The translations under genes were made by a program, and so were the position numbers. 64,000 nucleotides of DNA, taken from contig NZ_JAAMFG010000034.1 of NCBI RefSeq assembly GCF_011064545.1, positions 124,001 to 188,000 of the forward strand, given 5' to 3'. The stretch comes from Wenzhouxiangella sp. XN24. Its GTDB lineage: Bacteria; Pseudomonadota; Gammaproteobacteria; Steroidobacterales; XN24. Below the pieces are notes generated by a model, which saw only the letters and a list, made by a program, of their open reading frames with translations, did no database searches and was not told the DNA's origin. Shown here in pieces: positions 191-9,862 of the stretch. Each line of letters opens with the position of its first letter. The stretch's first letter is position 1.

Positions 191-385
191 TCACTTGGTC
201 AGGATCAGTTTCCCCAGGCGCGTTTCGCGCAGTTCGTAGACTTGGCCCCGATGGCGGATGCGCAGGCGCCGATGCTCGCCTAGCAGGTCGCGGCTGTCCA
301 TTTCCCGCGTCGGCGCGGCCGTGTCAGGCGCACGCAGGCCATCCGCACAGGCCTGCGTGTCTTTGCTGCGGTTCAATCCAGCCAT
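191..385 (-). CDS. hemP: Hemin uptake protein HemP
   Basis: This is a 64-residue protein whose C-terminal half matches the small HemP family: an SRDLL segment, then I-x-H-x-G-x-x-Y-x-L-R-x-T-R and the terminal G-K-L-I-L-T-K. HemP proteins accompany TonB-dependent heme receptors; in some bacteria they act as DNA-binding activators of heme receptor expression, in others the role is unclear. The start codon overlaps the last 13 bases of the heme receptor gene upstream, so the two are almost certainly co-transcribed and translationally coupled. The residues before position 25 are poorly conserved, so a downstream start cannot be excluded. Confidence 0.8.
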   Translation of the reverse strand: MAGLNRSKDTQACADGLRAPDTAAPTREMDSRDLLGEHRRLRIRHRGQVYELRETRLGKLILTK

Positions 386-2523
386 TGCAAGTCCTTGGCT
401 ATGGTGAGTCGTATGCTGCGGCCGGGTTGGTCGATGCCGTTGGGATGGATGCGGTAGTCCTTGTCGAAGACATTGTCCAGCGCCAGGCGGAGCTCGAAGC
501 CCGACAGCAGGCCACGATCCGGCAGCCAGTTGAGGAACACGTCGGTCTTGCCGTAGCCGGGCGTTGCCAGTGCGCCTTCCGGCACATCGCGGCGATCGCT
601 CGAGGCAATGAGTTCCCCGCCCACGGACAGTTGGTCGCTCAGCAGGTGGACACCCGCAGCCAGCGCAACCCGGTCAGGTTGAACGCTCCCGAGGTCCTCG
701 CCGTCCGCACCCTCGCCCTCGATGGCGGTAAGCGCCGCCTGGACCCACCCGACGCGGCCCTGGAGCCGCACCGTCGCCTCGAACCCCTTGAGTTCTGCAT
801 CGACATTGCTGTTGGTCGTGATCCCCGGGAATTCCAGCGTCTGGGTGATCGGGTTGAAGGCCGGCGGGCCGGAGATGAAAATCACCGTCTGATCAACGAA
901 ATTCTTCACATCGCTGGTCCAGGCGGTGAGATCGAGTTCCATGTCCAGGTCACTGCCGAACAGCGAGGCGCGTCGCCAGCGCAGGCCAGCCTGGAATTGG
1001 CTCGATTCCTCCGGAAGGAGGCCTGGCGTCGGCACGAACTCGTTGATCACGATCTGGCCGGGCCCGAACGGCGCGACAAAGTGCACGCCGTCGGCGTACA
1101 GTTCGGTGAGGCTCGGCGCACGAAAAGCCTCGGCATACTCGGTCCACAGGTAAAGATCATCGGTGGGCGACCAGCCGATGGCCAGCCGCGGCGACACGCT
1201 GTCCTCATCCCGGCTTGGAAACGCACCTGCGGGCGCGTATTCGAACTCGTCGTAGCGCACACCCGGGATCATCGAGATGCGCTCGCCGAAGGGAATCTCG
1301 GCCTGGATGAAACCGGCGCGGTAGTCCACGTCGGCGTCCGGAAATTGCGGGCGATCGGCGCCTTCGCGCGTTCCGCTCTGTTCGTCGCCGTACAGCTCGA
1401 TACCATACGTCAGCCGCATGCCGTCGATCCCCCCGCCGAAGCGAGAGGAGTTGGTCACTTCCAGCCCGCGGGTTTCAAAGTTCGTCCGGTCCACACGCCC
1501 GTCGTCCAGGCGAAACTCGTCCGTGTCGACGTTGTTCCTGTAGGCGGAGAAATCCAGGTGCAGCCAACGGTTGCCCGGATCGTCGTAGCGATAGCGAAAA
1601 CGGGCGCTGTCGCGTTCCGTGCTCCGGTCCACGACGTTGGTGGGTGTGGCGACTGCGTTGGCGTTGGTGGGGTTGATGCCCTGGTTCTCGAAGCGGTCGA
1701 TCGTCAACTCCACGCGTTGGTGGCGTCCGGGCTCGAAACCGAACTTGAACAGCCCCTCGCCGATCTCGTCCTGCGTTGCCGCGATGGGATCGCCGCCGCC
1801 GTCTTCCAGGTCCTCGCGGACGTCACGCACCACGTAGCTGCCGAGGATGTCGAATGCGCCGGCCTGCCCATAGGCGATGGCCGATCCGCCCCACTCATCA
1901 CCGTTCGACTGGTGACTGGCCTTGAGCCGGGTCCCGAATCCGTTCCGGTCCCCCGTCATGTCACGGCCGTTGACGGTCTCGATGACGAAGACACCGCCGA
2001 GTGCACCGCTGCCGTACACGGCCGAGCTGGCGCCGCGCAGCACCTCGATGGAGCGGATCAGGTCCGGATCCACCAGGAAGCGGCCGCCGTGCGCCTTGTT
2101 GAAGTTCTGCCGTGTACCGTCGAGACGGATGATGACTTGCTCGTCGGCAAAGCCGCGGATCGCCGGCTCCTCTGCGATGCGTCGCGGCCCGCCCTGGACA
2201 TTCACGCCCGGTATCATCTCGAAAACGTCCTGAAAACCGTAGGGCTGTGTGTCTTGAATGCTTTCCCGCGTGAGCACCGACACCGCAGCCGGCGTCGTGA
2301 ACTGCTCGCGCTCGGTCCGCGTGGCTGAAACAACGATGGCGCCGAGATTCAGCACGGCACTCGGCGACCCGGCCACCGACGCGTCGCCTGGAGCGGAGAC
2401 GGCAGCGCCGGTTTCGGCCTGGCCGGCAGCGGGGGAGGAGAGCGCCAGGACGAGAGCGGTCTGGACGGTCATGGCGAGCCGCGGGCCCCGGCGGCGGACG
2501 GCACTGGCGGGCGGATTGAGCAT
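373..2523 (-). CDS. TonB-dependent heme/hemoglobin receptor, outer membrane
   Basis: This outer-membrane receptor of about 716 residues probably imports heme into the periplasm using TonB energy. After a signal peptide ending near A-A-G-Q-A comes a TonB box (IVVSATRTER), the plug domain, and a long beta-barrel containing the FRAP motif of heme receptors (EAFRAPSLTELY); the usual NPNL partner is degenerate (P-T-P-G-L-L-P-E). The chain ends in a C-terminal barrel strand. The ATG at 2521-2523 was chosen because AAGGGG precedes it by eight bases and it begins the signal peptide. An in-frame ATG at 2665-2667 falls inside the Fur box and is rejected. No tonB-exbBD genes are visible nearby. Confidence 0.88.
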   Translation of the reverse strand: MLNPPASAVRRRGPRLAMTVQTALVLALSSPAAGQAETGAAVSAPGDASVAGSPSAVLNLGAIVVSATRTEREQFTTPAAVSVLTRESIQDTQPYGFQDVFEMIPGVNVQGGPRRIAEEPAIRGFADEQVIIRLDGTRQNFNKAHGGRFLVDPDLIRSIEVLRGASSAVYGSGALGGVFVIETVNGRDMTGDRNGFGTRLKASHQSNGDEWGGSAIAYGQAGAFDILGSYVVRDVREDLEDGGGDPIAATQDEIGEGLFKFGFEPGRHQRVELTIDRFENQGINPTNANAVATPTNVVDRSTERDSARFRYRYDDPGNRWLHLDFSAYRNNVDTDEFRLDDGRVDRTNFETRGLEVTNSSRFGGGIDGMRLTYGIELYGDEQSGTREGADRPQFPDADVDYRAGFIQAEIPFGERISMIPGVRYDEFEYAPAGAFPSRDEDSVSPRLAIGWSPTDDLYLWTEYAEAFRAPSLTELYADGVHFVAPFGPGQIVINEFVPTPGLLPEESSQFQAGLRWRRASLFGSDLDMELDLTAWTSDVKNFVDQTVIFISGPPAFNPITQTLEFPGITTNSNVDAELKGFEATVRLQGRVGWVQAALTAIEGEGADGEDLGSVQPDRVALAAGVHLLSDQLSVGGELIASSDRRDVPEGALATPGYGKTDVFLNWLPDRGLLSGFELRLALDNVFDKDYRIHPNGIDQPGRSIRLTIAKDLQWLD

Positions 2524-2648
2524 TGGATGTACCCCTTGAGCTGTTGCGAATCCAGGGAATCGATCGTCTGGATGTCCTGGCTGGCGGGGGAATCCGCGGG
2601 CTGGGGCGATAGGTAATTGGTTGAAAGAAACTTCGGGAAGGCTAACAC

Positions 2649-2667
2649 GAATGAGAACGATTCGCAA
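2649..2667 (-). promoter_or_regulatory. Fur box upstream of the heme receptor gene
   Basis: On the minus strand the site reads TGCGAATCGTTCTCATTCG, close to the gammaproteobacterial Fur core AATGATTCTCATT (11 of 13 positions). It lies about 125 bases upstream of the receptor start. By analogy with Fur systems it would repress receptor and hemP expression when iron is plentiful. A fur gene is present at 29285. Confidence 0.6.
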
Positions 2668-2820: not shown

Positions 2821-3639
2821 CTATGGGATGCCTGGCTCGTTCTCGGAGTGTCCGGAATGCCGCACCCGGTCCATTGCGGCCTGCTGGCGCGCCTCACCTG
2901 CGAGCTCGATGAGTCGCGGGCGAAGCTCCTCGGCGCGGGCGAGTGGCGCCGGGTAGGTGTAGCGGCGGTGATCATCGCCTGATGCGAGATCGATACCCTC
3001 GGGGTCCAGCCCCGTGATGCGCCAGTCACCGTCGTCGGCGCCGCAGAGACGCGTCGCGTAAAGCCTGGTCGCGTCGCGGTGATCCAAGTTCATGTGTGCG
3101 ATCGCACCGGCTTCCATCGCATGCCATTCAGGCCAATCCGCACATCGGGTTTCCAGGTCCGCACGGTCCAGCGCGTAGGCTTTGCCGAAGCCCTGGACGT
3201 AGGCCGCTGACGCGATCTCGAAACGCCACAGGGAAAAATCCGGGAAGTCGATATAAAGCGAGGCCTTGGGATGCCGCTCGAGGTAGCGGCGCCGGCACCG
3301 GGCATGGGTTTCGCCAGCGAGGCGTCGGACCGTGCCGGTCAGTGAGAGGCGCGGATGCGCCAGTGGATCACCGCGGCCAGGCTCACCCAGGAGCAAGGCC
3401 GCCCGACCGTCGCGCGTCATCGCCTCGATCCGGCCGGAGAGCGAAGAATTCGGGAAGAGGGGCATGCCGTCGGTATCGGTGGCGAGCCCGACCCGGGACA
3501 CGCTCGGTCCGTACTCCATGGCGTCGACCAGCGCGAGAGCGCCATGGCGCGCAGTCCGGACCAACGTCCTCGCAGCCATGCGCACCGCATCGTCCACGGC
3601 TTGCAGGAGTGACTCTTTGTTGGGCTGCATGGGCGTCAT
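2821..3639 (-). CDS. hutZ: HugZ/HutZ-family heme oxygenase
   Basis: This is a 272-residue cytoplasmic protein with a pyridoxamine-5'-phosphate-oxidase-like split barrel (about residues 15-155) followed by a DUF2470 domain containing the segment IAHMNLDHRDA (about 195-205). That arrangement defines the HugZ/HutZ family of oxygen-dependent heme-degrading enzymes, which open heme to biliverdin-type products and release iron. It lies between the heme receptor and hutW and is read leftwards from the intergenic region that carries the second Fur box. The general split-barrel family also contains flavin enzymes, but the DUF2470 fusion and heme neighbourhood favour HugZ. An alternative start three codons downstream (MQPNKES) is possible. 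Confidence 0.82.
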   Translation of the reverse strand: MTPMQPNKESLLQAVDDAVRMAARTLVRTARHGALALVDAMEYGPSVSRVGLATDTDGMPLFPNSSLSGRIEAMTRDGRAALLLGEPGRGDPLAHPRLSLTGTVRRLAGETHARCRRRYLERHPKASLYIDFPDFSLWRFEIASAAYVQGFGKAYALDRADLETRCADWPEWHAMEAGAIAHMNLDHRDATRLYATRLCGADDGDWRITGLDPEGIDLASGDDHRRYTYPAPLARAEELRPRLIELAGEARQQAAMDRVRHSGHSENEPGIP

Positions 3640-3717: not shown

Positions 3718-3736
3718 GAAAACGATTCCCATTCGC
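3718..3736 (+). promoter_or_regulatory. Fur box between hutZ-like gene and hutW
   Basis: GAAAACGATTCCCATTCGC resembles the Fur consensus (GATAATGATAATCATTATC) and the typical AATGATTCTCATT core. It lies 26 bases before the hutW ATG and about 80 bases before the divergent hutZ-like gene, so it could control both transcripts. Confidence 0.6.
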
Positions 3737-3761: not shown

Positions 3762-5237
3762 ATGAGCGTCATTCACCGATATTCGACTCCGGCGCAGGGG
3801 CTCGCCGCCGCAGGGCGGGCCGGAACTCGGCCAAATGGCGGCGTACCCGAGGCCGCAATGCCCGCCGACCTCGCAGAGGCACTCGCGGGGTTCATGGCCG
3901 CGACCCGCGGCGATCCGCTGCGCTCAGCGTTTTCCGATGTGCGGCGTGCGCACCCGGGCGGCCTCGCGGCGCCGGTGCCTGCAGAAGAGTTCGAAGCCCA
4001 CTGGGCTGTCATGTCGCAATCGCCCCGGTCGGGCCCCGGCACCGCATATGTTCACGTGCCTTTCTGCGAGACGCATTGCCTGTTCTGTGGCTTCTATAAA
4101 TACCACTGGCGGAAACGCGACGGCGCACCTTACGTAGACAGTGTGCTGACGCAGGCACGGCGCCTGCAGGGGCTCCCGCTGCTCGACGGCCCGCCGCTGC
4201 GGGCACTCTACCTGGGCGGGGGGACACCGACGATCCTCGCGGCGCCGGATCTCCACCGCCTGGTCAGCGAGTTGCGCGCGCTGCTTCCGCTGGCCCCCGA
4301 TTGCGAGATCACGCTGGAAGGTCGCATCCTCGCCTTCACGGAAGACAAAATGCGCGCGGCCTTCGACGCCGGCGTGAACCGCGTGTCGCTGGGCGTCCAG
4401 ACCTTCGATGAACCGGTTCGCCACAGCCTCGGGCGCAAGGCCGGCAGGCAGGCGGTGATCGCCACGCTGGAGAAGCTGGTCGCGCTCGACTGCGGTGCGA
4501 TCGTGATCGATCTCATCTATGGGCTGCCAGGGCAGTCCTTCGAGACCTGGGCGGAAGATCTGCGCCTCGTCGAGGCCATCGGCCTGGACGGCGTCGACCT
4601 CTATGGGCTCAACCTGATCCCGGGCACCCCGTTAACGACGGCCATCGACAAGCGCAAGCTCGATCCCGTGCCGCGCCAGGACCTCGGGGTGTTCTACGCC
4701 GCCGGTGCCGAGGCCATGGAGCAGGCCGGGTGGGAGGCGATCTCCACGTCGCACTGGCGCAGCCCGAGCCTGCGCGAACGCTCGGTCTACAACTATCTCA
4801 GCAAGACAGGCGCGGAGTGCATTGCCTTCGGCGCCGGCGCGGGCGGAGCGCTGGGCGGCGTCGGCTATCGCCTGACGCCGACCGTCGATGCCTATGCCAG
4901 GCAGCTGGACCAGGGCCAGTTGCCCATCACGAACATGTTCCGCGCACGGCCGGATGCCGCCTTGGTCAACATGATCCGCGCGGGCATGGAGCGTGGCAGG
5001 CTGGATTCGGCACGGGTTCGCGCGGCCCCCGGGGGCGAGGCTGCCATGGACGACCTGGAGCCGCTCCTGGCGCACTGGTCGCGGGCCGGGTTGATGGTGC
5101 GCCGCCAAAGGTTTTTCGATCTGACTGTCGCCGGCCGTTTCTGGCAGGTGGCTATGACCCAGCGAATCATCGGATTCCTGGACCACCCGCAGCGCCAGCC
5201 GATGGCGACCCTGCTGCTCGAAGAGGGCGAGAAATGA
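3762..5237 (+). CDS. hutW: Radical SAM anaerobic heme-degrading methyltransferase HutW/ChuW
   Basis: This is a 491-residue radical SAM enzyme with the 4Fe-4S ligand motif C-x3-C-x2-C at Cys102, Cys106 and Cys109 (P-F-C-E-T-H-C-L-F-C), preceded by YVHVPF. A GGGTP motif (about residue 151) and a HemN-like C-terminal domain follow. The ChuW/HutW family opens the porphyrin ring without oxygen by radical methyl transfer, releasing iron and forming anaerobilin. It resembles coproporphyrinogen dehydrogenase HemN, but the heme-uptake context and coupling to hutX argue for HutW. The gene ends in an ATGA overlap with hutX, so translation is probably coupled. A Fur-type site lies directly upstream. Confidence 0.9.
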   Translation: MSVIHRYSTPAQGLAAAGRAGTRPNGGVPEAAMPADLAEALAGFMAATRGDPLRSAFSDVRRAHPGGLAAPVPAEEFEAHWAVMSQSPRSGPGTAYVHVPFCETHCLFCGFYKYHWRKRDGAPYVDSVLTQARRLQGLPLLDGPPLRALYLGGGTPTILAAPDLHRLVSELRALLPLAPDCEITLEGRILAFTEDKMRAAFDAGVNRVSLGVQTFDEPVRHSLGRKAGRQAVIATLEKLVALDCGAIVIDLIYGLPGQSFETWAEDLRLVEAIGLDGVDLYGLNLIPGTPLTTAIDKRKLDPVPRQDLGVFYAAGAEAMEQAGWEAISTSHWRSPSLRERSVYNYLSKTGAECIAFGAGAGGALGGVGYRLTPTVDAYARQLDQGQLPITNMFRARPDAALVNMIRAGMERGRLDSARVRAAPGGEAAMDDLEPLLAHWSRAGLMVRRQRFFDLTVAGRFWQVAMTQRIIGFLDHPQRQPMATLLLEEGEK

Positions 5238-5737
5238 ACGACACGATCCCGGCCCGCCGCATCGATGCCACCCTGGCGGAATCCCCAACTGCTCCACTGG
5301 AAACCATCGCTGAGCGAGCCGGCACCACCGTCGCCGATGTGGTTCGGCGCCTGCCCGCCGGGGAAGCCGTTTGCGTCGATGGCGCGCACTTCGTGGATGT
5401 CATGGAGGATCTCGCGCAATGGGGCGAGATCACCTTCATCGTCAACACCGGCGATGTGATTCTCGAGGCCCGCGGCGAGGTGCCCGAGGGGAGCATCGGG
5501 CGCGGTTTCTACAACCTCAACGGCAAGCCGATCGGCGGGCATCTGAAGGCTGACGCCTGCGGGATGATCGCCTTCGTCTCACGCCAGCTTTTCGGTTCGC
5601 CCACCCGCTCGGTGCAGTTCTACGGCCATGCCGGCCACTGCCTGTTCAAAGTCTATCTGGGGCGAGACGAGGAACGACGGATCAAGGCCGACCAGGTCGA
5701 AAAATTCGTCGCGCTGCGCGAACGGCTGGCCTGCTGA
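5234..5737 (+). CDS. hutX: Heme utilization cytosolic carrier HutX/ChuX
   Basis: This 167-residue protein belongs to the HutX/ChuX family of cytosolic heme-binding proteins that pass heme to degrading enzymes. Recognisable parts are ITFIVNTGDVILEARGEVP and GRGFYNLNGKPIGGHLKAD, then the conserved stretch in which S-R-Q-L-F-G and S-V-Q-F-Y-G lead to G-H-C-L-F-K-V-Y-L-G-R-D-E. Its ATG overlaps the hutW stop (ATGA). The hutW-hutX pairing is the standard arrangement of anaerobic heme-degradation loci. Confidence 0.9.
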   Translation: MNDTIPARRIDATLAESPTAPLETIAERAGTTVADVVRRLPAGEAVCVDGAHFVDVMEDLAQWGEITFIVNTGDVILEARGEVPEGSIGRGFYNLNGKPIGGHLKADACGMIAFVSRQLFGSPTRSVQFYGHAGHCLFKVYLGRDEERRIKADQVEKFVALRERLAC

Positions 5738-5749
5738 GGAATCACAGCC

Positions 5750-6673
5750 ATGGAATCCAACGACTCGACAGCCGGAGAGTTGCCGCCACCACTCGCAGAT
5801 CGGCATCTCTTCTGTTTCGGCTGCGGTTACAGCGCGATGCGCCTGGGCCGGGAACTGCTTGCGGCAGGCGCACGAGTTTCCGGCACGAGCCGAACCGCAT
5901 CGGGCGTGGACCGGCTCGAAAAGCTCGGCATCGCGGCCCACGTCTTCGACGGCTCCACTGCGCTCCCTGCAGCGGCGTTCGAGGGGGTCACCGACGTACT
6001 GTCCTCGATCCCGCCGGGCACGGGCGGAGATGACGGCGTGCTGACGAGGCACAACACAATCCTTGCTGACCTGCCGACGCTCTGCTGGACGGCGCTCCTG
6101 TCTACCACCGGGGTGTATGGCGACACACGGGGGGCCTGGATCGACGAGAGCGCGCCCACCGACCCCCGCACGCCCGGCAACGAGCGGCGCGTCGCCTGCG
6201 AGGAACGCTGGCTCGCCTGGGGCTGCACCCACGGCAAGCCCGTGCAAATTTTCAGGCTGCCCGGCATCTACGGCCCGCACCGCTCGCCATTCGCCCGGCT
6301 GCTTGCCGGGGACGCCCGCCGTATCGTCAAGCCGGGCCAGGTGTTCAACCGCATTCACGTGGACGACATTGTCGCCGCGCTGCTGCTGGCCATGCAGGTG
6401 CCGGCGGCCGGGCCGGTGTTCCACCTGGCCGATGACGAGCCGGCGCCCGCGGACGAAGTGCTGACTCATGCCGCCGCGCTCCTCGGGCTGCCCCCGCCGC
6501 CCGCCGTGCCCTACCACGCGGCGGACCTGCCGCCCATGGCCCGCCACTTCTACGAGGAATGCAAGCGCCTGTCCAACGGCCGGGCGCGACAGGAGCTCGG
6601 CTTTGTACCCCGTTACCCGACCTACCGCGAGGGCCTGGCCGCGATTCTCGCGGAGGAAGCCGCCGGGCAATGA
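5750..6673 (+). CDS. NAD(P)-dependent SDR/epimerase (YeeZ-like) in the heme operon
   Basis: This 307-residue Rossmann-fold protein is of the atypical/extended SDR type. It has an N-terminal nucleotide-binding turn (FGCGYSAMRLG, about 20-30), a SGTSR segment that fits NADP preference, S-T-T-G-V-Y-G-D near 115-122, and RLPGIYGP (about 167-174). By sequence it resembles YeeZ-like putative epimerases of unknown substrate. It starts 12 bases after hutX and precedes hmuT by 16 bases, inside the heme operon. In E. coli O157 the corresponding position is held by chuY, the anaerobilin reductase; a comparable role here is an inference from context only. Confidence 0.75.
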   Translation: MESNDSTAGELPPPLADRHLFCFGCGYSAMRLGRELLAAGARVSGTSRTASGVDRLEKLGIAAHVFDGSTALPAAAFEGVTDVLSSIPPGTGGDDGVLTRHNTILADLPTLCWTALLSTTGVYGDTRGAWIDESAPTDPRTPGNERRVACEERWLAWGCTHGKPVQIFRLPGIYGPHRSPFARLLAGDARRIVKPGQVFNRIHVDDIVAALLLAMQVPAAGPVFHLADDEPAPADEVLTHAAALLGLPPPPAVPYHAADLPPMARHFYEECKRLSNGRARQELGFVPRYPTYREGLAAILAEEAAGQ

Positions 6674-6689
6674 ACATGGAGATCTCCCG

Positions 6690-7553
6690 ATGATACGTGT
6701 GCTTTTCTTGTTGCTCGCTACCTGTGTTTACGTCGCACCGGCCATGGCAGCCGAGCGTGTGATCTCGATCGGCGGATCGGTCACCGAAATCGTCTACATG
6801 CTGGAGCAAGAAGAGCGGCTGGTCGGGCGCGACACCACGTCCAGCTTCCCCCCGGAAGCCGAGTCGCTGCCGGACGTCGGTTACAAGCGCGCATTGTCGC
6901 CGGAAGGCGTCCTGTCGCTGGATCCGGATCTGGTGCTGGCGGAAGAGGGCAGCGGTCCGCATGAAACGATCGCCGTGCTGGAGAATGCGCGTGTCCGCTT
7001 CGTCACAGTGCCCACCGGTTACGGCGCGGAAGCGATCCGGGCCAAGATCGAAGTCGTAAGCGATGCCCTGGGCGTGCCGGACCGGGGCCGGCAGCTCGCC
7101 GACCGGATCGAGTCCGAGCTTGAAGCAGCGGTGGCGGCGGCCAGCACCGACCGGCCTGCGCGGGTCCTGTTCATCCTGTCGATGCAGGGTGGCCGGATCA
7201 TGGCCGGCGGTCGCGACACCAGCGCGGACGGCATCATCCGGCTCGCCGGCGCCGAGAATGCGATGACGGGTTTCACCGGCTACAAACCACTGACCGACGA
7301 GGCCGTGATCGCCACTGCACCTGACGTGATCCTGATGATGGAACGTGCGATGGCCGGCGACGACGCAGGCGGCAACCACGGGATAGACAATGACGCCTTG
7401 TTCAATCATCCCGGCCTGGCGGCGACCCCGGCTGCCGAAAGACAGGCGGTGGTGCGCATCGACGGGCTGTTGTTGCTCGGTTTCGGACCGCGCACCCCGG
7501 AGGCGGTGCGCGCCCTGACCTCGGCGCTGGCGGATTTCGATGAAGCCGGCTGA
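6690..7553 (+). CDS. hmuT: Periplasmic heme-binding protein of heme ABC transporter
   Basis: This 287-residue class III substrate-binding protein has a signal peptide cleaved near A-P-A-M-A. ISIGGSVTEIVYML and the LSPEGVLSLDPDLVLAEEG segment are typical of HmuT/HutB/PhuT hemin-binding proteins, as are the later G-G-R-D-T motif and a Y-K-P-L-T-D-E-A helix. It would bind heme delivered by the outer-membrane receptor and feed it to the permease encoded next. The ATG at 6690 follows GGAGATC in the spacer after the SDR gene. Confidence 0.88.
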   Translation: MIRVLFLLLATCVYVAPAMAAERVISIGGSVTEIVYMLEQEERLVGRDTTSSFPPEAESLPDVGYKRALSPEGVLSLDPDLVLAEEGSGPHETIAVLENARVRFVTVPTGYGAEAIRAKIEVVSDALGVPDRGRQLADRIESELEAAVAAASTDRPARVLFILSMQGGRIMAGGRDTSADGIIRLAGAENAMTGFTGYKPLTDEAVIATAPDVILMMERAMAGDDAGGNHGIDNDALFNHPGLAATPAAERQAVVRIDGLLLLGFGPRTPEAVRALTSALADFDEAG

Positions 7554-7571: not shown

Positions 7572-8660
7572 GTGAACGAGACGGTCATCAGCCCCGGAAT
7601 GACCTGGCCCGGATCGAGCGGCGCCGGGGATCGACGGCGGCTCGCCGCGCGCACCAGCCTGGCGCTGATCTTGTTGATGCTGCTCGTCAGCGTTGTCAGC
7701 CTCGGGATCGGCGCGGCGGATGCGTCGTTCTGGAACAGCCTGGTCACCCTGGCCCGTGGTGGCGAGCTGAGCGCGCTGGAGCGGGTCATCCTGTTCGACA
7801 TCAGGTTGCCGCGCCTGGCGATGGGCTTACTGGTCGGGGCCGCGCTGGCGGTCTCGGGCGCCGTGATGCAGGGCTTGTTCCGCAACCCGCTGGCCGATCC
7901 CGGGCTGGTCGGCGTCGGTGCAGGGGCCGGGCTGGGCGCGATCATCGCGATCGTGCTGGGCGCCTCGTTGCCTGCCGCGGTGAGCCTCGCGATCGGGCAC
8001 TACATCGTGCCGGTGGCTGCATTCCTCGGCGGTTGGGTGGCGACCCTCGTCCTTTACCAGGTGTCGACATCGCGGGGACGCACCTCGGTAGCGATGATGC
8101 TGCTGGCCGGGATCGCGTTGGGGGCGCTGGCCGCTGCGTTGTCCGGCATCCTGGTCTACATGGCGGATGACGCGCAGCTGCGTGATTTGACCTTCTGGGG
8201 GTTCGGCTCGCTGGCCGGCGCGACCTGGGGCAAGCTGATGGCCGCCGCGCCGCTGATATTGCTGGCGATGGCCGCAGCGCCTTTCCTGGCGCGCAGCCTC
8301 AACGCGCTGGCGCTGGGTGAAGCCGCCGCGGCGCACCTCGGCATCCCGATCCAGCGCATGAAGATGCTGGCGGTAGTGGTCGTGGCAATGGCGACCGGGG
8401 CGGCCGTCGCGGTGTCGGGCGGAATCGGCTTCATCGGCATCGTCGTACCGCACCTGCTGCGCATCAGCGTCGGTCCGGACCACCGCTACCTGTTGCTCAA
8501 CTCGGCCCTGCTCGGCGCCAGCCTGCTGGTGCTCGCCGATACCATCAGCCGCACCATCATCGCGCCGGCCGAGCTGCCGATCGGCATCCTGACCGCGGTC
8601 ATCGGCGGCCCTGTCTTCATCTGGATACTGCTGCGAAACCGCGGCATGCTGAACTTGTGA
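7572..8660 (+). CDS. hmuU: Heme ABC transporter permease (FecCD family)
   Basis: This 362-residue polytopic inner-membrane protein of the FecCD/BtuC family has about ten hydrophobic helices. It carries the family signatures G-A-x-L-A-V-S-G-A-V-M-Q-G and L-F-R-N-P-L-A-D-P-G-L-V-G near residues 95-117, and IGFIGIVVPHLLR near 285-297. It starts with GTG; an in-frame ATG nine codons later is an alternative. It sits between the binding protein and ATPase genes, completing a standard heme importer. Confidence 0.9.
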   Translation: MNETVISPGMTWPGSSGAGDRRRLAARTSLALILLMLLVSVVSLGIGAADASFWNSLVTLARGGELSALERVILFDIRLPRLAMGLLVGAALAVSGAVMQGLFRNPLADPGLVGVGAGAGLGAIIAIVLGASLPAAVSLAIGHYIVPVAAFLGGWVATLVLYQVSTSRGRTSVAMMLLAGIALGALAAALSGILVYMADDAQLRDLTFWGFGSLAGATWGKLMAAAPLILLAMAAAPFLARSLNALALGEAAAAHLGIPIQRMKMLAVVVVAMATGAAVAVSGGIGFIGIVVPHLLRISVGPDHRYLLLNSALLGASLLVLADTISRTIIAPAELPIGILTAVIGGPVFIWILLRNRGMLNL

Positions 8661-8667
8661 ACCATAT

Positions 8668-9480
8668 ATGCTGCATGCGACCCGACTCGAAGTTTCATTG
8701 AGCCAGCGTCCCATCCTCCGGGACGTGGAATTCCGTGCGCGACCCGGTCAGCTGACCGCGATCGTCGGTCCCAACGGCTCCGGCAAGACCACGCTGCTGC
8801 GCGCGCTGACCGGCGAAACACCGTTCACCGGGCGGGTCGAGTTGGACGGCGACGACATCACGGCCCTCAAGCCCTGGCAACTGGCGGCGCGCCGAGCCGT
8901 ATTGCCGCAGGCCACTCGCCTGGCGTTCCCCTTCACCGTGCTCGAAGTCGTCCGGATCGGCCTCTCCTGCGGCCGTGATGGGGGAAGGGAAAGGCTCGCC
9001 GAAGCCGCCCTGGCGCGCGTCGGTCTCAGCGGTTTCGAGGGACGCTTGTTCCATGAGCTGTCCGGCGGCGAACAGCAACGCACCCAACTGGCGAGAGTCC
9101 TGGTGCAGGTGTGGAATCCGGTGGTCGACGGCTTGCCATGCTGGCTGTTTCTCGACGAACCGGTCGCCAGCCTGGACATCGGGCAACAACTCGAAGTCAT
9201 GCGTCTCGCGCGCGAGTTCGCGACGGCTGGCGGCGGCGTGATCGCCGTCATGCATGATCTCAACCTGACGGCGATGTTCGCCGACAGCGTGGCGATCATG
9301 CGGGAGGGGCACCTGATGCAACAGGGTCCCCCGGGCGAGGTGCTCACGGATGGCTGCCTGAGTACGGCGTACGGATGCCGCGTGCGAGTCAATGTCACGC
9401 CGTCAGCGGGTGCGCCGTTTCTCTTGCCGCATGCCTGCGTCGAAACGGCTCGATTCGAACGATCGGTGTCCGCGCCTTGA
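8668..9480 (+). CDS. hmuV: Heme ABC transporter ATP-binding protein
   Basis: This 270-residue ABC ATPase has Walker A GPNGSGKT (34-41), a Q-loop (VLPQATR), the signature LSGGEQQR (about 130-137), Walker B WLFLDEP (about 166-172) and switch HDLN. It closely matches the HmuV/ChuV family, including the insertion between signature and Walker B (WNPVVDG) seen in heme importer ATPases. It starts seven bases after the permease stop. It powers heme import into the cytoplasm, where HutW, HugZ and IsdG-type enzymes could act. Confidence 0.92.
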   Translation: MLHATRLEVSLSQRPILRDVEFRARPGQLTAIVGPNGSGKTTLLRALTGETPFTGRVELDGDDITALKPWQLAARRAVLPQATRLAFPFTVLEVVRIGLSCGRDGGRERLAEAALARVGLSGFEGRLFHELSGGEQQRTQLARVLVQVWNPVVDGLPCWLFLDEPVASLDIGQQLEVMRLAREFATAGGGVIAVMHDLNLTAMFADSVAIMREGHLMQQGPPGEVLTDGCLSTAYGCRVRVNVTPSAGAPFLLPHACVETARFERSVSAP

Positions 9481-9532: not shown

Positions 9533-9862
9533 ATGACCATGTACATCGCGATGAACCGCTTTCACATTCGTCCGGGTGAGGAAGAGACCTTCGAGAACAT
9601 CTGGAAGCAGCGCGAAAGTCGGCTTCGTGAACTGCCGGGATTTCGCTCGTTTCGCCTGTTGCGAGGGGAAAGCCAGGAGGAATTCACGCTCTTTGCCTCG
9701 CACACGATCTGGGATTCCGAGGCCGCATTCCAGGCGTGGACGAAGTCCGAAGCATTTCGCCAGGCCCACAAGAACGCCGGCGCCCATAACAACGTCTACC
9801 TGGGGCATCCGAGGTTCGAGGGATTCCAGGAAGTGCCGGGTACGGCGGAATCCGCGGAATAG
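9533..9862 (+). CDS. IsdG-type heme-degrading monooxygenase (ABM domain)
   Basis: This is a 109-residue single ABM-fold protein. It keeps the catalytic triad of IsdG/IsdI heme oxygenases: Asn8 (YIAMNRF), Trp69 (AFQAWTKS) and His79 (FRQAHKNA). The ten-residue Trp-to-His spacing is the same as in staphylococcal IsdG (Trp67/His77). Such enzymes bind heme as dimers and open it oxygen-dependently. It follows hmuV by 52 bases and is probably in the same transcript. GGAG lies 4 bases before the first ATG and 10 before a second one (MYIAMN), so either start is possible. Confidence 0.82.
   Translation: MTMYIAMNRFHIRPGEEETFENIWKQRESRLRELPGFRSFRLLRGESQEEFTLFASHTIWDSEAAFQAWTKSEAFRQAHKNAGAHNNVYLGHPRFEGFQEVPGTAESAE

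Follow-up and report, generated by a model that had tools for sequence, protein, structure and literature searches.

A YeeZ/3ius-type SDR behind hutW-hutX in Wenzhouxiangella sp. XN24 as a candidate anaerobilin reductase

The window analysed here, a 64,000-nucleotide stretch of contig NZ_JAAMFG010000034.1 of Wenzhouxiangella sp. XN24, carries a heme locus in which an SDR of the YeeZ/3ius type is encoded directly behind hutW and hutX. The evidence leans slightly towards a dedicated accessory role for this SDR in the HutW pathway, in which it would most likely reduce anaerobilin with NADPH. Its role is best read as analogous, not homologous, to that of ChuY. According to excerpts of PMC10404700 and PMC12670364, ChuW/HutW opens heme to anaerobilin, freeing iron; anaerobilin is cytotoxic, and E. 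coli reduces it through ChuY, at the expense of NADPH, whereas Fusobacterium uses HmuF, a flavodoxin-like protein. Since both ChuY and HmuF carry out this reduction, the slot is already filled by unrelated enzymes, and an SDR located behind hutX, where E. coli has an unrelated reductase, is therefore a reasonable candidate for the same job. It would constitute the third component of a hutW-hutX-SDR module with a Rhodobacterales-type HutW. With heme received from HutX, the radical SAM enzyme HutW would open the ring without oxygen to yield anaerobilin; the SDR, with NADPH, would then put a hydride onto a conjugated bridge of anaerobilin and thereby detoxify it. This step would parallel the detoxification by ChuY and HmuF in their respective hosts, although the enzyme would come from a different SDR subfamily, one without the YxxxK pair. 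If this is true, a third reductase, from an unassigned SDR family, would mean that the anaerobilin-reduction step has been repeatedly reinvented, and one branch of the large uncharacterised 3ius/YeeZ-type family would be given a function. Anaerobic heme use would moreover extend beyond the pathogens and oral bacteria studied so far to environmental bacteria such as Paracoccus and Cereibacter.

The SDR open reading frame (5750..6673, + strand) encodes 307 aa from an ATG start, with a GAGGA motif 5' of the start at 5736-5740. It belongs to the gene order hutW-hutX-SDR-hmuTUV-hmuQ, all on the + strand. hutW/chuW (3762..5237) encodes a member of the radical SAM anaerobilin synthase family (TIGR04107, 490.6 bits for a cut-off of 400), and its 3' end shares 4 nt with the 5' end of hutX (5234..5737), the gene of the cytosolic heme carrier (TIGR04108, 189.5 bits, cut-off 110). 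The hutX stop at 5737 leaves 12 intergenic bases before the SDR start, and hmuT begins 16 nt downstream of the SDR with an ATG at 6690. The product of hmuT (6690..7553) is a periplasmic binding protein (PF01497) assigned to heme from its context. It is followed by the FecCD permease gene hmuU (7572..8660; PF01032), the heme ABC ATPase gene hmuV (8668..9480; NF010068, 308.6 bits, cut-off 261) and hmuQ (9539..9862, start at 9533 or 9539), which encodes a heme-degrading monooxygenase (NF053649, 154.6 bits, cut-off 130). Coordinates and profile matches confirm the preliminary description, which had placed the SDR 12 bases after hutX and ahead of hmuTUV. The layout suggests that hutWX-SDR-hmuTUV-hmuQ is a single, co-transcribed operon. 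On the - strand, a HugZ-like protein (2821..3639; PF10615 and PF13883, with a TIGR04109 match under the cut-off) is encoded divergently from hutW, next to a TonB-dependent heme receptor (373..2667; TIGR01785, 406 bits) whose real start may lie further in. A Fur-box-like 19-mer without assigned strand (3718..3736), between hugZ and hutW, agrees at 13 of 19 positions with the Fur-box consensus; it is one of three sites with this score in the 64 kb, and none scores above 13. A second Fur-box-like stretch, upstream of the heme receptor (2647-2665), reaches 11 of 19 against the same consensus, a score that 81 sites of the window have exactly. The promoter/terminator scan found no more than was found in shuffled controls.

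The preliminary description had considered the SDR larger than ChuY and of another subfamily, and this holds: 307 aa with PF01370 versus 209 aa with PF13460 (1.9e-35) for the compared ChuY, which matches the structures 5guy and 5ffq. As with ChuY of E. coli O157:H7, it is an NAD(P)-binding protein of SDR type encoded by the third gene, directly behind hutW/chuW and hutX/chuX. It differs from ChuY in size and Pfam family and by the lack of sequence similarity, so that the two share a position but neither sequence homology nor the PF13460 domain. The SDR was tried as a ChuY homologue and rejected, the best BLASTP E value being 0.40 over 17 residues. No ChuY query reached an E value below 0.65 in the syntenic locus of the congener G389 or in seven Rhodobacterales hutW loci. 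HmuF/FldH of Fusobacterium nucleatum resembles the window SDR in another way, as the excerpts of PMC10404700 describe an unrelated protein that occupies the same pathway slot and adjoins the anaerobilin synthase. However, HmuF/FldH has a flavodoxin fold with FMN and heme, whereas the window protein is an SDR: its predicted model fits 3ius and extended SDRs, not a flavodoxin, over nearly the full length. The SDR 3ius of Ruegeria (Silicibacter) pomeroyi and the queG-linked alphaproteobacterial SDR belong to the same subfamily as the window SDR, but 3ius lies in a generic alphaproteobacterial clade, apart from the hut-linked copies. E. coli YeeZ is a remote homologue. The window SDR is 31% identical to a protein encoded in genome G763 (E 1.3e-14), and the DNA of that protein matches E. 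coli yeeZ at about 65%; the label "YeeZ-like" is thus fair but remote. In G763 this gene lies about 1.07 Mb from chuW on the same contig, and chuW is followed by chuY. The literature search returned no paper on YeeZ function. In the excerpts of PMC12423496, the alphaproteobacterial genes Hden_0599-0601 of Hyphomicrobium denitrificans are named ChuW-ChuX-ChuY, and through these the hutW-hutX-SDR gene order may already have been published in part, with the third gene called ChuY. No description of this SDR in an anaerobilin-reductase role was found in the open-licence literature, subscription papers being mostly outside the search.

The only Pfam match of the window SDR is PF01370 (2.8e-06), and the closest solved structure is the functionally unknown 3ius (E 5e-68). 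The predicted model, for which 39 proteins were aligned, has high confidence (pLDDT 94.0, pTM 0.91) and superimposes on 3ius with a Z score of 36.8 and an rmsd of 2.0 over 281 residues (44% identity). The next fold matches, sugar-nucleotide enzymes and others, have Z scores of 27.4 or lower. The window protein is thus predicted to adopt the extended-SDR fold. The match is a generic one, with 703 PDB chains at E <= 0.001 and, among the matches listed, mostly sugar-nucleotide enzymes. TerB, an NADP-dependent oxidoreductase, fits the model with a Z score of 26.7 (rmsd 2.8, 275 residues aligned), tied with many sugar epimerases. ChuY is absent among the best 50 fold matches, which has no bearing on fold kinship. 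Classical SDRs carry a catalytic Tyr-x3-Lys (YxxxK) pair. This pair is missing here: in the 16 rows compared, R147 stands at the Lys position and no row has a Tyr at the Tyr position. Full-length homology to 3ius together with this atypical active site places the protein among the YeeZ/3ius-type SDRs. R147, S118 and V122-Y123-G124 are invariant in the 39 rows of structure alignment A2, which comprises the window SDR and 38 of the 80 loci kept in the genome-wide scan. T46 and R48, after the second strand, are nearly invariant in A2, a conservation that would suit NADP as cofactor. The AvaA7 family profile NF058621 also matches the window SDR (E 2.2e-14, 53.8 bits, far under the cut-off of 400). 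The excerpts of PMC10777205 describe AvaA7 as swapping a diazo group for a hydride from NADPH; a remote relative by sequence, it performs NADPH hydride chemistry on a conjugated substrate. The residues that mark the hut-linked rows are often common to rows of family f190 (see below) or gamma-type rows and give no clue to the substrate.

Within the order sample, HutW was detected at E <= 1e-100 in 2 of 196 genomes, that of the window (G000) and G389, both of the same genus. G389, taken as Thioalkalivibrio sp. XN8, has the whole locus including the SDR, with identities to the window of 88% for the SDR, 86% for HutW and 92% for HutX. The SDR is under purifying selection between these two genomes (dN/dS 0.26), its value being the highest among the nine genes compared (0.06-0.20 for the others). 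Tblastn searches of plasmids yielded 19 records with the SDR and 19 with HutW. Two records were recovered with both queries and have the genes together: pORIO2 of Cereibacter azotoformans, typed as conjugative, and p1 of Paracoccus methylovorus. Both have the order hutW-hutX-SDR with an annotated hutX/SDR overlap of 4 nt, and they are the only Rhodobacterales in the plasmid HutW list. The remaining 17 of the 19 SDR records gave no HutW match at 1e-60. HutW is present in 5 of 374 sampled genomes of the Roseivivax lentus family; the SDR is directly behind hutX in two of them (L182 and L183), and the hutW loci of the others (L184, L185 and L186) gave no SDR match at 1e-5 in the 10.7-19.5 kb examined. 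Altogether, four of the seven Rhodobacterales hutW loci examined, two of them on plasmids, have the order hutW-hutX-SDR. HutW was detected in 14 of the 398 genomes of the phylum sample; apart from that of the window itself, all 13 belong to the same class. The SDR was found in none of these 13 loci of other families within 1.5 kb past the HutW match, and again in none of the five that were re-read over 10 kb; four of the 13 loci have chuY, seven have hutZ and two have neither (L085, L088). HutW was found in none of 240 genomes of a family-spread class sample around G603, and searches of phages, of viral contigs and of the genus of G1502 (two genomes) led nowhere. The coupling of the SDR to hutW/hutX where no chuY is detected, which the preliminary description had suggested as a check, is seen in both HutW-positive genomes of the order sample, each of the window's genus, and in four of the seven Rhodobacterales loci, but not in the other three.

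HutW and HutX are encoded in all six SDR-linked hut loci. HmuQ and a HugZ-like protein are found in both loci of the window's genus; no match to the oxygen-dependent HmuQ/HugZ was found in the four Rhodobacterales SDR loci. hmuTUV lies near the SDR in the window's genus, L170 and L183; L171 and L182 have weaker ABC matches only, and the SDR-less L186 also has hmuTUV. As HutW/HutX occur in six of six loci while HmuQ, HugZ and hmuTUV vary, the constant partner of the SDR is the anaerobic ring opener with its heme carrier. The anaerobilin reductase reading is supported by the tight position of the gene and by the same order in G389, pORIO2, p1 and two Roseivivax lentus-family genomes. Moreover, the SDR was not seen in the 11 sampled loci having chuY or hutZ, and the SDR fold performs NAD(P)H hydride transfer. 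The hydride chemistry of AvaA7 and the fit to TerB point the same way, as does the extra paralogue in the hut-linked genomes checked (see below).

The SDR family is far commoner than HutW in the class, with a match in 78 of 185 genomes versus HutW in 1 of 369. A genome-wide scan (A1) found 165 relatives, of which 80 were kept. One of the 80 kept loci (XN8) is a heme locus and 79 are not. Since the two peptide patterns of A1 recovered none of the Rhodobacterales hut-linked copies, 1 in 80 understates the linkage. A further 17 A1 loci have only HmuV/HmuU-like ABC matches of 25-35% identity; in L097 the nearest of these is some 3.4 kb away from the SDR, and several A1 loci end early at contig ends. 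The contig of L095 is recorded as Mycobacterium sp. KBS0706; its SDR groups with those of Inquilinus limosus, and the contig may be misnamed. A queG gene is found no more than 600 nt from the generic alphaproteobacterial member in 55 of the 79 loci, a proximity that hints at a separate housekeeping role; in L205 this SDR (4998-5873) adjoins queG, the epoxyqueuosine reductase gene. The nearest relatives outside the genus are those of family f190 (two copies in G375, and G387), with 67-68% identity and non-heme neighbourhoods, and neither genome has HutW at E <= 1e-100. The two G375 copies (L067 and L069) are very similar and lie near the ends of two contigs with differing flanks, reflecting either a duplication or an assembly break. 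A second full-length family member is encoded elsewhere in each of the four hut-linked genomes checked (G000, G389, G1502 and G1516), and one full-length member elsewhere in the HutW-positive genomes without a linked SDR (G1518, G1513 and G1405). The order sample includes seven members of the window's family: the hut-type SDR is present in the two that have HutW, and the remaining five, in which HutW was not detected, carry only a gamma-type paralogue. Taken literally, the family as a whole does occur mostly away from heme loci (79 of 80 loci; 78 of 185 genomes versus 1 of 369), an outcome that the preliminary description had named as refuting its proposal. On the other side, most non-heme members belong to clades separate from the hut-linked copies, and in each of the four genomes checked the hut-linked copy is an additional paralogue.

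Such a distribution would be accounted for if the SDR had another job, for example that of the queG-linked members, and had entered the operon as a passenger or through operon growth. This is unlikely in our view, although the family is mostly off heme genes and often adjoins queG (55/79), three of the seven Rhodobacterales hutWX loci have no SDR and the f190 relatives lie away from heme genes. A passenger would not be expected in the identical place behind hutX in six loci of two well separated lineages, nor under purifying selection, and the four hut-linked genomes checked keep a separate family member. The same observations weigh on the anaerobilin reductase reading, as the family is mostly not heme-linked, its f190 relatives are in non-heme surroundings and three of the seven loci do without the SDR, though those genomes keep a full-length member elsewhere. 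The dN/dS of the SDR is also the top value of its locus, its fold match is generic, and the hut-linked rows are not one clade (see below).

Two other roles within heme metabolism were considered. The SDR could aid HutW, either by feeding it electrons as an NAD(P)H:flavin reductase or by acting as a heme/anaerobilin chaperone, rather than reduce a bilin. The immediate linkage to hutW-hutX fits this, ChuW is reported to take electrons from flavodoxin (excerpts of PMC12670364), and ChuY is reported to have FMN reductase activity and porphyrin affinity (excerpts of PMC6775658). However, Pfam gives NAD(P)-binding families only and no flavin-binding one, and three hutWX loci manage without the SDR, which makes a helper of HutW rather improbable. 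Reduction of biliverdin, or a similar bilin, produced by the oxygen-dependent HmuQ or the HugZ-like protein is improbable to much the same degree: these genes share the locus with the SDR in the window and G389, but no match to them was found in the four Rhodobacterales SDR loci, whereas hutW and hutX are in all six. The window locus itself is likely to contain three heme-degradation routes, through the HugZ-like protein, the HmuQ monooxygenase and anaerobic ring opening by HutW; those four loci did not show this combination.

The history of the hut-linked SDRs was examined in a 60-row tree, a hand-picked subset from which the duplicates L037-L039 were omitted, as they were from the comparison of marker residues; the 155-row set omits L012 (187 aa) and L197 (no match at 1e-5). 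The four Rhodobacterales hut-linked copies form a clade (support 100/99), as do the window, G389 and f190 copies (100/99). The generic alphaproteobacterial members, among them 3ius as well as the second copies found in G1502 and G1516, form a third clade that excludes both others (98/90); the branching order of the three has a support of 93/47. This separate clade of resident generic copies indicates that the hut-linked SDRs are old paralogues, not recent duplicates of a resident gene. An exclusive clade of hut-linked SDRs was rejected (p-AU 0.0001). A single clade of hut-linked and f190 copies, a group defined after the tree was seen, withstood the AU test (p 0.40). Two histories would fit: an old module, with f190 having lost hutW or acquired the SDR only, or two separate recruitments of the SDR to hutWX. 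In a HutW tree of 19 rows, 10 of them from same-class loci, the window HutW clusters with those of Rhodobacterales (94/99), with which it shares 52-58% identity, as against 33-36% with five same-class loci and up to 43% with a Rahnella plasmid copy. The SDR-less rows are interspersed among the SDR-linked rows, which fits an old module with losses. Somewhat short of even odds, we would place the broader proposal that this extended-type SDR without YxxxK evolved independently as a third class of anaerobilin reductase and spread, together with hutW and hutX, as a mobile hutW-hutX-SDR module among Rhodobacterales (one plasmid being typed as conjugative) and into a gammaproteobacterial genus. Finally, the TonB receptor gene of both plasmid hut loci is followed by a gene for a 120-aa protein that matches no Pfam family (L170 12050-12412; L171 6683-7045).
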